From: Mesotoga sp. BH458_6_3_2_1 | GTDB taxonomy: Bacteria > Thermotogota > Thermotogae > Petrotogales > Kosmotogaceae | Direction: 5' to 3' | Assembly: GCF_003664995.1 (NCBI RefSeq) | Contig: NZ_JFHL01000002.1 | Span: forward strand, 186,001-250,000 | Length of the DNA stretch: 64,000 nt | In this document: positions 18,341 through 22,481 of the stretch, one piece after another | How the letters are laid out: every line of letters starts with the position of its first letter | How positions within the stretch are numbered: the first letter of the stretch is position 1 | Made by a program: the position numbers and the translations under genes | The notes under the pieces: model-generated | What the model was told of the DNA's origin: nothing | Seen by the model: the letters and a program-made list of their open reading frames with translations, nothing else | Databases searched by the model: none

Positions 18341-19037
18341 GCCAAAGAGACGACGTGGTCCAAAGTTGTTGTGGCTGATTCTCGTTATAGTAATAGTTGT
18401 TGCAGCTGGTGCAGGTTACGTATATTTCACAATCAACGGTGTGAAAAACAGCGATGAAATGAAGGCGGGAAATGTCGACTATCTCTTCTACTGGCAGGAG
18501 GGTGACGATTCTCTCTACTACTACTTGAGAACTACTGCTGGAGGCAGAACTTCAGTGGTTACTTTCCCTGTCTATGCCACTATTGAGAATTCGCAAGAAG
18601 TTCTAGATCCCAAAACGGGAGTGGCAGCAATCGATCTAATCCATAGTTGGCTTGGTACTAACGGTGATTTCTCGTATTTTGCTAACCTCTCTCCTGAGTT
18701 TATCGATACGCTTGCCTCCAGGCTTAGTGTTGATGCACTGAATCCCGTTCAGCTAATCGATGCAATAGCACTGAGGGGATTCAAGATACTGGATTACTGG
18801 AAGATAGCAGGCTATGCCGAGACCTTCAAGGAGTACGATGGTGCTTCTACCATGACTCCCAAGGCAGTTGCTGTGCTTCTCGAAAGACTCGGTAACTCGT
18901 CGAGAATGGCCTATCAACTGGAGACATCGACACAGTTTCCTATGAAGATCTCTGTAGGGGTTGGAGAAGAGAGCATAAGCCGTCTCTATCTAAAACCTGA
19001 TTCTCTGGAGAACGTAAAGAGAGCACTTTCAAACTGA
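18327..19037 (+). CDS. Single-pass membrane protein of unknown function
   Basis: A 236-residue protein with a basic N-terminus (KPKRRRGPK), one transmembrane helix (about 15-40) and an extracytoplasmic domain of about 195 residues. The domain begins with VDYLFYWQEGDDSLYYYLRT, and its repeated beta pattern is of the kind seen in extracytoplasmic partners of LCP proteins. I do not recognise a named family. TTGGAGGTG precedes ATG 18327. The stop abuts the LCP start with a one-base overlap (ATGATG), so the two products are probably made together and may interact at the membrane. Confidence 0.75.
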   Translation: MSLIKPKRRRGPKLLWLILVIVIVVAAGAGYVYFTINGVKNSDEMKAGNVDYLFYWQEGDDSLYYYLRTTAGGRTSVVTFPVYATIENSQEVLDPKTGVAAIDLIHSWLGTNGDFSYFANLSPEFIDTLASRLSVDALNPVQLIDAIALRGFKILDYWKIAGYAETFKEYDGASTMTPKAVAVLLERLGNSSRMAYQLETSTQFPMKISVGVGEESISRLYLKPDSLENVKRALSN

Positions 19038-20239
19038 TGAAATCCGTTCATCTCTCATTGGTTGTCCTTGTGATCTTTCAGGTTGTTCTTTTCTTCTTCC
19101 TGATCTTTCTGATGTTCAAGGAAGCGTATAGTTCTATGTTGGGGAGAGATCTTGCGGGTGAGACTTTCCTGATAGTTGGGACTGATACCGGTGGAGACTC
19201 TGAAAATGCTGTCGGTGGAAGAACAGACTACATATCGGTAGCTTACTTCGGATCCTCAGGGACTTTGTTGCTGAAAAGCATCCCAAGAGACACGATCATT
19301 ACACACGAGTCGGAAAGAAGAAAGATCAACTCTCTATTTAACTCTTTTGGAATGGAGGTACTAATTCGAGAAGTCGAGAAGCTCACAGAGAGAAAAATCA
19401 CTGGTTCAGTTTCTATAGACTTCAATACAGTCACTGAAGTAACAAAGTTTTCCGGTCCCATTCGCGTGGAAGTTACCTCTCTTATGCACCACGATGATTT
19501 TCAACAAGGACTACACATTCACTTTGAACCCGGTATTCATTTTCTTGAAGGGGAGGATTTGCTCAAATTCCTTCGCTACAGGGAGGCGGATTCGGGAGAC
19601 CTAGGTCGTATTGAAAGGCAGAAGCAAGTTGTCGAGCAGTTTGTCCAAAACCTGATTAAGGCGGGGCCATCGAAAATAATCGAGATGATAGACTTTGTGA
19701 TTGAAAGAACTGATATCAGTATAGATAAGAAGTCGCTGACAGATTTGGCAGTTGGGTTTTTCACCGGGCAAAGAGCTGTAAGGTTCACACAAATAGACTA
19801 CTATATTGATGACAACGGCCGAATAATTCCTTCTGGACCGGGCGAGAATGAACCAGAAGCAGTTAAGGCGGAGGGCGCCTCTCCAAAGATCCTCGTGGTG
19901 AACAACATTCCGGACTTCAGCGCAAAATTCGGTGATTTTGCCGAGACAATAAAGGGTCAGTGGTCTTCGCTGGCCGGAGTGAAGGTAGGAGCAACGGGTA
20001 TCGTTCCTGATGTATCAGGAATTGAGAAGCGTGACACATATCTCTTCATTAACTCGAGAGCTTCTGAGATCAGAGAGCTTTTCTCGAAGGCCCATGTTTA
20101 TCACAGACCTTTTGTCATTGTTACTTCTAGCTTCGGAGGGCTTGAGTATTACTACTCGCTAATAGATTCCCTGTCGAAAAATAGATTTTATCAATCCGGC
20201 TACGATGCATATGTATTGCTTGGTGTAGGAGGAAAGTAA
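19037..20239 (+). CDS. LytR-CpsA-Psr (LCP) family protein
   Basis: LCP proteins transfer lipid-linked polymers onto peptidoglycan or other acceptors. The 400 residues show one N-terminal helix (about 8-27), then an LCP domain (about 40-250) with GRTDYISVAYF and LKSIPRDTI, where the Arg-Asp of the pyrophosphate-binding site is intact. FLRYREADSGDLGRIERQ provides the second set of conserved Arg and Asp. A LytR_C-like domain ends the protein. The context with a YqeK-like gene is frequent. What is attached in an organism with a toga outer envelope is unknown. Confidence 0.88.
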   Translation: MKSVHLSLVVLVIFQVVLFFFLIFLMFKEAYSSMLGRDLAGETFLIVGTDTGGDSENAVGGRTDYISVAYFGSSGTLLLKSIPRDTIITHESERRKINSLFNSFGMEVLIREVEKLTERKITGSVSIDFNTVTEVTKFSGPIRVEVTSLMHHDDFQQGLHIHFEPGIHFLEGEDLLKFLRYREADSGDLGRIERQKQVVEQFVQNLIKAGPSKIIEMIDFVIERTDISIDKKSLTDLAVGFFTGQRAVRFTQIDYYIDDNGRIIPSGPGENEPEAVKAEGASPKILVVNNIPDFSAKFGDFAETIKGQWSSLAGVKVGATGIVPDVSGIEKRDTYLFINSRASEIRELFSKAHVYHRPFVIVTSSFGGLEYYYSLIDSLSKNRFYQSGYDAYVLLGVGGK

Positions 20240-20243
20240 CGAG

Positions 20244-21191
20244 ATGAGGAGTATCTTCAGGGATTTCACATACGATTTCTTCGGTATTCTGAACTATCCG
20301 AAAGAACAATGGAACGATTTCTGGGTACTTTATAGAGAGAGACATCCAAGAGTTCTCGAAGAATACATGTTCAAAAACAACCTTGACGAAACGTTGCTTG
20401 CTCAAGCACTGGATGGCCTTGAAAGGAGAGAAATCGATAGGCTTTCTCACTATTGGGAAACTCAAGGTCCAATCGAAAAGACGAAGGTGCTCAAAGAGCT
20501 GGGAAGAATGTCGTCACAACTTCACCTGGAAAGGGAAGACTTCGTGATCCACATACTGGGTGCTCTTGGAAAACAACAACACCTGATTGTTCCAACGTCA
20601 AAGGGAAATGTAGTAATGATAGATCTTCTCTATTGCTGGAAAGAGAATACGGTAAGGGACTTCCTTAGTGTGGTTTTAAGTGCTCTTGATGACTTTATCG
20701 ACTATTCAAGCATGAATGTTCGTCATTATATGCGTGGTTCAGAAAAGGCAGCAAGGCTCAAGAGAGTATTCGAGCGCATTGACAAGAAGGTACAGGGACA
20801 TTCTCTGGAAGAAAAGCTAACGATTGTTTCGAAGCTGCTTGATAAATTTGTCGATTATTATAATTGGACTGGATTCTATCTTGTTAATAATAACTCCCTG
20901 GTTCTTGGTCCCTATGTGGGTGAACCTACCGAACACGTTAAGATCAATTTCGGAAGTGGCATATGCGGCCAAGCGGCGGAGACTAAGAGGGTTTTTCTTG
21001 TGCCTGACGTTTCCAAGGAATCCAACTATCTTTCTTGCAGTGCAAGAACGAAAGCAGAAATAGTTCTTCCACTTTTGGTTGGAGGGACGGTAATAGGTGA
21101 ACTAGACATTGACAGTCATTTTCAAAATAGTTTCGATGATCTCGATCGGGAATTTCTCGAAAAAACTTGCAGACTCCTCATCGAAAGCTGA
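20244..21191 (+). CDS. GAF-domain protein resembling free methionine-R-sulfoxide reductase, with an extra N-terminal domain
   Basis: A 315-residue protein. The last ~125 residues are a GAF domain close to fRMsr (YtsP/YebR): NWTGFYLVNNNSLVLGP, then GSGICGQAAE, SCSARTKAEIVLPL and GELDIDSHF. fRMsr reduces free Met-R-sulfoxide with three cysteines. Here the ICG and SCS cysteines are present, but the position ten residues before ICG, usually Cys, is His. The first ~190 residues are helical, unlike the stand-alone 150-160-residue enzymes, and I recognise no family in them. It could be a reductase with altered chemistry or a small-molecule sensor. It starts four bases after the LCP stop. Confidence 0.7.
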   Translation: MRSIFRDFTYDFFGILNYPKEQWNDFWVLYRERHPRVLEEYMFKNNLDETLLAQALDGLERREIDRLSHYWETQGPIEKTKVLKELGRMSSQLHLEREDFVIHILGALGKQQHLIVPTSKGNVVMIDLLYCWKENTVRDFLSVVLSALDDFIDYSSMNVRHYMRGSEKAARLKRVFERIDKKVQGHSLEEKLTIVSKLLDKFVDYYNWTGFYLVNNNSLVLGPYVGEPTEHVKINFGSGICGQAAETKRVFLVPDVSKESNYLSCSARTKAEIVLPLLVGGTVIGELDIDSHFQNSFDDLDREFLEKTCRLLIES

Positions 21192-21317: not shown

Positions 21318-22481
21318 GTGCACATTACCCCTGAGGTAAGAAAGGCCGCAAGAGAAGTGAAGACACCATTCTTGATAATGGATATGGATTACGTCAGAAA
21401 CAACTATTTCGACATTGTAAGCCATGTTAGGAATGTTCAGGTGTTTTACGCGGTTAAAGCGAATTCACACCCCAGGATTATCGAGACTCTTCGGGACCTC
21501 GGCAGTAATTTTGATGTAGCTTCTCGCGGTGAGATTGAGAAACTTCTCTCGCTTGGAATTGGTCCAGATAGAATGAGTTTTGGAAACACAATCAAGAAAG
21601 TGGAGGACATTGCATACGCTTATTCCGTTGGAATAGATTACTATGCTGTCGACTCTGAAATGGAAGTTGAGAAAATAGCCGCTCACGCTCCCGGAAGCAA
21701 AGTATATGGAAGAATTGCTACCAGCGGTGGCGATTGTGACTGGCCTCTCTCCAGAAAGTTTGGAACCGATGTTAATCATGTCATTTCAATAATGGAATAT
21801 GCAGATCAGCTGGGACTTGATGCATATGGGGTAAGCTTCCATGTTGGTTCTCAGAATTACAACGTCAATAGCTGGGACGACGCGATAAGTGATGCCGCAG
21901 AGGTTTTCAAGACTCTACGCTCCAGGGGTATCGACCTTCGAATGTTGAACCTTGGTGGAGGTATGCCAGTTAAACATGTCAGAGAAATCAAGTCTGTCAA
22001 GGCATATGGTGACATTATTAACAAAGCGCTTGACAGATATATGTCTTCGATCCCCGATCTTGAGCTTTTCATAGAGCCAGGAAGATCAATGGTTGGGAAT
22101 TCGGCGATTCTCGTGAGCCAGGTTATTCTCAGAAGCAAGAAGGGTAATGAAAACTGGGTCTACATAGATGCAGGTGTCTTTCACGGCCTCACGGAGACAA
22201 TCGAAGGGTTCAGATACGAGGTCCTTACCGAAGGAAAGGTTGATGACACAAAGATCTCTTTTCATCTTGCAGGACCCACATGTGATTCTGTTGACACGAT
22301 CTACCACGAAATTGATTTGCCGAAGAATATAGGCTACGGAGATATTCTGTATTTTATCAACGCGGGTGCTTATACAACAGAATACGCAACCAATTTCAAT
22401 GGGATAGATGCTCCTAGAGTGCTTTTCGTAGAAGACTTCATAGATGCAAGAACACCAATTGACGGTGATTTCATAGAATAA
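21318..22481 (+). CDS. PLP-dependent ornithine/lysine/diaminopimelate decarboxylase-family enzyme (fold type III)
   Basis: A 387-residue alanine-racemase-fold decarboxylase. The PLP lysine is in FYAVKANS (about residue 48). Other signatures are SFHVGSQ, NLGGGMPV, EPGRSMVGNS and GPTCDSVDTIY, the last carrying the catalytic Cys-Asp pair supplied to the partner subunit. The lineage is that of short bacterial and archaeal ornithine/lysine decarboxylases, so a polyamine role (putrescine or cadaverine) is likely; substrate choice cannot be read. The start is GTG 21318. A terminator overlaps the stop by one base. Confidence 0.88.
   Translation: MHITPEVRKAAREVKTPFLIMDMDYVRNNYFDIVSHVRNVQVFYAVKANSHPRIIETLRDLGSNFDVASRGEIEKLLSLGIGPDRMSFGNTIKKVEDIAYAYSVGIDYYAVDSEMEVEKIAAHAPGSKVYGRIATSGGDCDWPLSRKFGTDVNHVISIMEYADQLGLDAYGVSFHVGSQNYNVNSWDDAISDAAEVFKTLRSRGIDLRMLNLGGGMPVKHVREIKSVKAYGDIINKALDRYMSSIPDLELFIEPGRSMVGNSAILVSQVILRSKKGNENWVYIDAGVFHGLTETIEGFRYEVLTEGKVDDTKISFHLAGPTCDSVDTIYHEIDLPKNIGYGDILYFINAGAYTTEYATNFNGIDAPRVLFVEDFIDARTPIDGDFIE

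Follow-up and report, generated by a model that had tools for sequence, protein, structure and literature searches.

Within a window of 64,000 nucleotides from a Mesotoga contig (the whole stretch of DNA that was analyzed), the open reading frame at 20244-21191 on the plus strand encodes a protein of 315 amino acids. Its C-terminal GAF domain resembles free methionine-R-sulfoxide reductase (fRMsr) but carries a His in place of one of three conserved cysteines, and a domain without a family name (N-domain) precedes it. We asked whether such a protein is still a reductase, recycled by a different partner, or a sensor that signals through its N-terminal part, as a sequence-only reading had proposed as alternatives. 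AlphaFold2 produced a confident two-domain model of the full protein (mean pLDDT of 93.7), in which the junction between the N-domain and the GAF domain is a short helical transition. The features of the locus are listed in Table 1. The LytR-CpsA-Psr (LCP) gene and the gene for the N-domain-fRMsr protein are probably cotranscribed. A pyridoxal phosphate (PLP) decarboxylase gene was found beside the N-domain locus in 12 of 16 cases in f1, in all 8 fetched cases in f3, and at the single f6 locus (f1 to f11 are family codes for groups of Thermotogota genomes).

Table 1. Positions of the gene's domains, key codons, and neighbors within the window
Feature	Position	Strand	Remark
N-terminal domain (residues 1-165)	20244..20738	+	Thermotogota-specific, no named family
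Type II fRMsr GAF domain (residues ~166-315)	20739..21188	+	Assigned by sequence and structure matches
Trp208 codon	20865..20867	+	Position conserved, 69/69 rows
His231 codon	20934..20936	+	Site of the first Cys of type I fRMsr
Cys241 codon (GICG)	20964..20966	+	Equals TafRMsr Cys60 by alignment
Cys265 codon (YLSC)	21036..21038	+	Equals TafRMsr nucleophile Cys84 by alignment
Glu272 codon	21057..21059	+	Conserved
Asp288-Ile-Asp290 codons	21105..21113	+	Conserved
Upstream gene, LytR-CpsA-Psr (LCP) family	19037..20239	+	Ends 4 bases before the start of the fRMsr gene
Downstream PLP decarboxylase (Orn/DAP/Arg type)	21318..22481	+	

The GAF part matched every solved fRMsr enzyme; in sequence, the E value was 2.9e-26 for the Staphylococcus aureus fRMsr and 2.3e-19 for the type II enzyme 4mmn. 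Comparison of the model with solved structures by VIA gave a Z score of 25.5 (rmsd of 1.4 over 149 residues) for S. aureus 3ksf and of 21.5 (rmsd of 2.1 over 132 residues) for 4mmn of Thermoplasma acidophilum (TafRMsr), which confirmed the closeness to fRMsr that had been read from the sequence. Superposition on the solved enzymes started at about residue 162. Since the residues from about 162 to 166 onward already belong to the GAF fold, the previous figure of about 190 helical residues ahead of this domain was an overcount; the preceding part comprises about 162 to 165 residues and is mixed alpha/beta, with strands at residues 100 to 105, 113 to 117, and 122 to 127.

The Cys-to-His change noticed earlier was also found by alignment, as His231 lies exactly ten residues ahead of Cys241 in the GICG motif. 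Pairwise alignments placed a Cys of the type I enzymes, which have one residue fewer in this region, at the His231 site, so that the resolving Cys carried by type I enzymes ten residues ahead of their GxCG Cys is absent here. Cys241 and Cys265 are retained and the third type I Cys is missing, again in agreement with the first description. TafRMsr, for which Kim et al. 2014 is reportedly the primary paper, carries the same His (GEKTDHVEI, compared to GEPTEHVKI in the Mesotoga protein). According to the accessible part of a review (PMC6211008), TafRMsr is active with two cysteines only, Cys60 and Cys84; Cys84 acts as the nucleophile, no disulfide is formed between the two, and a separate thiol has been proposed to resolve Cys84, with thioredoxin serving in vitro. 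Judged by its sequence, the Mesotoga GAF domain belongs to the known type II of fRMsr, and its Cys-to-His change is real and not odd.

To place this change, we followed position 231 through two sets of sequences. The first comprised the Mesotoga protein and 68 further open reading frames, all from Thermotogota, with a few duplicates of one gene among them and with GGDEF fusions included. Trp208, His231, Cys241, Cys265, Glu272, Asp288, and Asp290 were present in 69 of 69 aligned rows; in fRMsr structures, the positions of Trp208, Glu272, Asp288, and Asp290 serve in substrate binding. In the second set (48 open reading frames, 3 from Thermotogota and 45 from other phyla), 29 sequences had His, 17 had Cys, and 2 were partial, and no residue other than His or Cys was found at this position. 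In the other phyla, His231 was seen in 26 of 43 classifiable loci and Cys in the remaining 17. One of the Cys rows (L154) was assigned by eye where the aligner had left a gap, and one His row (L170) has Ser at the position of Trp208. A quick tree of 118 rows was calculated with column 231 omitted and with two partial GAF rows (L143 and L148) and identical rows dropped beforehand. The His/Cys state switched only once on this tree; the 17 Cys rows formed one clade (SH-aLRT of 99), and the His rows, depending on the root, may be a grade. Because a single change separates the two states and the Cys rows form one clade, the His marks type II, and the central anomaly of the locus is a subtype signature. 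A chance substitution or sequencing error was ruled out as the origin of His231, which is invariant in the Thermotogota relatives and common beyond them, and a degenerate GAF domain with a lost active site was ruled out as the residues are kept. In total, fRMsr was detected in 91 of 103 Thermotogota genomes. One f2 genome contains a second copy of the N-domain-fRMsr gene that is interrupted by stops (G035:C8:614-1529).

We conclude, with a probability of roughly 0.8, that the Mesotoga protein is an active fRMsr of type II and that an external thiol recycles it. In the proposed mechanism, the GAF pocket would bind free Met-R-sulfoxide, and Cys265 would attack the sulfoxide; methionine would then leave, and Cys265 would be left as a sulfenic acid. 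As the type I resolving Cys is replaced by His231, the sulfenic acid would have to be resolved by an external thiol, either thioredoxin (as for TafRMsr) or an AhpD-like CxxC protein. A thiol within the protein itself was looked for as well, since a third cysteine elsewhere had been named as the observation that would speak against a different partner. In 37 aligned rows of the N-domain, neither a Cys nor a His is conserved, and Cys occurs in at most 6 of the 37 rows of any column. A hidden third Cys was thereby ruled out, and so was the N-domain as thiol donor.

The AhpD-like protein (PF02627) is a candidate on account of its gene arrangement. Among genomes with a full-length His-type GAF domain not fused to the N-domain, 14 of 42 had an AhpD-like domain or gene fused or adjacent to fRMsr, compared to 0 of 17 genomes with type I (Fisher test, 0.006). 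The association extends over several phyla. The two are fused in six Thermotogota genomes (L056, L060, L061, L062, L163, and L164), and adjacent genes on the same strand were found in two Thermotogota and six other genomes (L058, L123, L124, L127, L128, L135, L165, and L167); among the latter six, one adjacency involves a partial open reading frame only and one a distance of 160 bases. No AhpD-like gene was adjacent to the N-domain-fused loci, many of which have only about 1.5 kb of flank. In f7, DUF1667 is fused to the type II fRMsr instead (L059:2560-3405), and an AhpD-like gene was undetected in that genome. A different fusion joins an AhpD-like domain to a domain that looks by eye like the Sua5/YwlC type (L177:3209-4588).

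The presence of both genes was then compared across 82 good Thermotogota genomes, which remained after 21 of the 103 were excluded for completeness below 90% or contamination above 5%. Counts compiled by hand from presence tables gave 60 genomes with both genes, 14 with fRMsr only, none with the AhpD-like gene only, and 8 with neither. The corresponding Fisher value of 9e-6 is too optimistic given shared ancestry. None of the 8 good genomes lacking the GAF domain has an AhpD-like gene; three GAF-lacking genomes that have one (G007, G071, and G079) were among those excluded, and G055, scored as lacking fRMsr, carries a GAF fragment (E value of 3.9e-5). The AhpD-like gene is missing from 14 of the 74 good fRMsr-bearing genomes, so the AhpD-like protein is not the only donor; 13 of these belong to f2, where thioredoxin or another thiol must serve. 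Outside Thermotogota, strong AhpD-like matches were obtained in 13 of 28 type II genomes, 6 of 17 type I genomes, and 9 of 242 others, with no difference between the two types. Thus, the AhpD-like gene goes with fRMsr generally, whereas its adjacency was seen with type II only.

Of 22 distinct AhpD-like sequences, 21 retain an intact E-x11-C-x2-C-x3-H motif, including the Mesotoga copy, which lies on another contig upstream of a gene recognized by eye as polA. The same spacing is described for Glu36, Cys48, Cys51, and His55 of PA0269, its proton-relay residues, in the accessible part of the corresponding paper (PMC3141380). These data suggest that an AhpD-like CxxC protein supplies the external thiol in place of the missing resolving Cys, and the gene fusions make it a concrete and easily assayed candidate for the reductant that type II fRMsr uses physiologically. 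Literature searches found no link between CMD/AhpD proteins and fRMsr; the single text found to name both AhpD and fRMsr does no more, in its accessible part, than list the two. The first of the two initial proposals, a reductase with a different partner, therefore fits best, both with the external thiol reported for type II and with the AhpD-like fusions and adjacencies.

The N-domain had been regarded as belonging to no known family, and this held in our searches: Pfam gave no match to the Mesotoga N-domain even at an E value of 10, and a PDB sequence search with it returned nothing of note. Relatives showed scattered weak matches to unrelated Pfam families, none of them shared by more than 2 of 37 members (best E value of 0.0015; curated cutoffs were not printed). 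The domain is by no means rare, however. A 37-row profile detected it in 100 of 103 Thermotogota genomes and in all 82 good ones, so that a domain for which we found no family name or function spans the phylum. Over the N-domain, identity to the nearest named relatives (Mesotoga, Kosmotogaceae) is 91%. All 37 rows contain W23 and R61, and 35 contain D65 and D127. Outside Thermotogota, the profile matched 1 of 287 genomes (G318, E value of 2e-4), and this match was rejected as chance, the protein being by eye an HsdS-like restriction specificity subunit. Fusion of the N-domain to fRMsr was seen in 74 genomes, and a separate N-domain in 26; 17 of the latter carry fRMsr elsewhere, and six f11 genomes (92 to 99% complete) possess the N-domain while fRMsr was undetected. 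On a quick tree, the fusion state required 5 changes, although a single fused clade was not rejected (AU test, P value of 0.188). The enzyme was probably joined to the N-domain within Thermotogota; the domain is phylum-wide, and its fusion is not rare. The six f11 genomes suggest that the N-domain also functions independently of fRMsr, and since the domain sometimes stands alone, its role can be tested apart from the enzyme.

Modeled alone, the N-domain reached a pLDDT of 90.5. Foldseek found no significant match among PDB folds (best E value of 0.99), and a viral-fold search gave nothing usable. When 470 chains were realigned with VIA, the best Z score among the matches listed was 5.1 (rmsd of 3.4 over 102 residues), in a range (below 8) where, by VIA's own caution, a score can reflect a common arrangement. 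Of the best 20 of the 470 chains, 18 were metallopeptidases or zincin-like proteins by their titles, including anthrax lethal factor (partly its first domain), Acel_2062, Wss1, the DPC-repair protease, selecase, jannalysin, MMP-11, and BlaR1; the other two were HPr kinase and an AB5 toxin chain. None of the 104 N-domain hits (the chance hit included) contains an HExxH motif within its first 175 residues. Therefore, the N-domain is no peptidase and, if a zincin at all, a dead one. It probably represents a noncatalytic domain with a predicted zincin-like fold and with its own role in redox or sulfur stress physiology.

Gene neighborhoods bear on what this role may be. In f5, a Rrf2-type regulator gene lies directly upstream of the stand-alone N-domain and a rubredoxin gene follows on the same strand in 10 of 10 genomes (L039, L040, L042 to L045, L087, L088, L174, and L175); at L087, the N-domain frame continues into rubredoxin. 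In f3, where 10 genomes have the N-domain and 8 were fetched, a Rrf2-type regulator gene directly precedes the fused N-domain in all 8, and the decarboxylase follows. In f11, the fetched genomes that carry the fusion encode MnmA upstream, and the six in which fRMsr was undetected have an OTC-like gene downstream of the N-domain. In f8, the N-domain adjoins either an HD_5 (HD-domain) gene or one that looks by eye like disA. In f10, which we take to be Fervidobacterium-like, four sequences (L048, L084, L085, and L090) continue from the N-domain-fRMsr part into a long stretch with GGDEF at its end and reach about 780 amino acids in all; GGDEF similarity was seen in all four, and one of them was scanned with Pfam. 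Open frames of about 780 amino acids exist in nine f10 genomes. Besides the four sequences, two f10 genomes have an N-domain-fRMsr gene whose end is overlapped by a GGDEF gene.

Such neighbors could mean that an active type II fRMsr is at the same time read by the N-domain, which would pass on the redox cycle of the enzyme, in f10 to GGDEF. The intact active site, the regulatory neighbors, and the six f11 genomes with an N-domain alone agree with this double role, but neither Cys nor His is conserved in the N-domain, and we consider it somewhat unlikely. Conversely, the N-domain could be a mere stability or dimerization module with no separate function, as the short helical transition in the model and the frequency of the fusion (74 of 100 N-domain genomes) would allow. 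This is unlikely, since the domain stands alone in 26 of the 100 genomes, shares a short operon with Rrf2 and rubredoxin in 10 of 10 f5 genomes, and occurs in six genomes where fRMsr was not detected. Finally, the protein could be a sensor whose GAF domain binds Met-R-sulfoxide or senses oxidants via Cys265 and Cys241, with the N-domain transmitting the signal and catalysis being of secondary importance or lost. This would suit the GGDEF, Rrf2, and HD_5/disA neighbors but is improbable, as no residue for catalysis or binding varies among the 69 rows, GGDEF fusions included, the His belongs to a proven enzyme subtype, and the Mesotoga protein has no fused output domain and lies between an LCP gene and a decarboxylase gene; the second initial proposal, a sensor instead of an enzyme, is thus unsupported even though some f10 relatives precede GGDEF.

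Among the other methionine sulfoxide reductase genes, MsrA (PF01625) was detected in 53 of 103 Thermotogota genomes, Mesotoga included, and MsrB (PF01641) in 33; the MsrA of Mesotoga is present but divergent. As MsrB was undetected in all ten genomes of the genus Mesotoga, fRMsr may be its only means of repairing the R form of methionine sulfoxide. While the His change itself was already known, the N-domain and the AhpD-like association are new. It is possible, though doubtful, that a two-part methionine sulfoxide reductase system, made up of type II fRMsr and an AhpD-like CxxC protein dedicated to it, takes the place of the built-in resolving Cys, and that in Thermotogota the enzyme is also docked on a phylum-specific dead zincin-like domain tied to Rrf2/rubredoxin redox regulation and in f10 on a diguanylate cyclase, through which methionine oxidation could give rise to a c-di-GMP signal.

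Compared to known systems, the N-domain bears a weak resemblance (Z scores from 5.1 to 3) to zincin-like folds such as Acel_2062 (3e11), Wss1, the DPC protease (6mdx), and selecase. The candidate partner shares its motif spacing with the AhpD proteins of the CMD family (PF02627), such as PA0269 and Mycobacterium tuberculosis AhpD; in Mesotoga, it is encoded by a separate gene, and we infer its partnership with fRMsr. The type I enzymes (Escherichia coli YebR/MsrC and those of Neisseria meningitidis, S. aureus, and yeast [YKL069W]) share the GAF fold and the equivalents of Cys241 and Cys265 but have three cysteines, with a Cys in place of His231. A further counterpart is Ta0848, the T. acidophilum type II fRMsr (PDB 4mmn and 4mn7), which lacks the N-domain and shows a pairwise identity of about 31 to 32%, but which shares the GAF fold, has its two cysteines at the same places, and, like the Mesotoga protein, carries a His for the first type I Cys.
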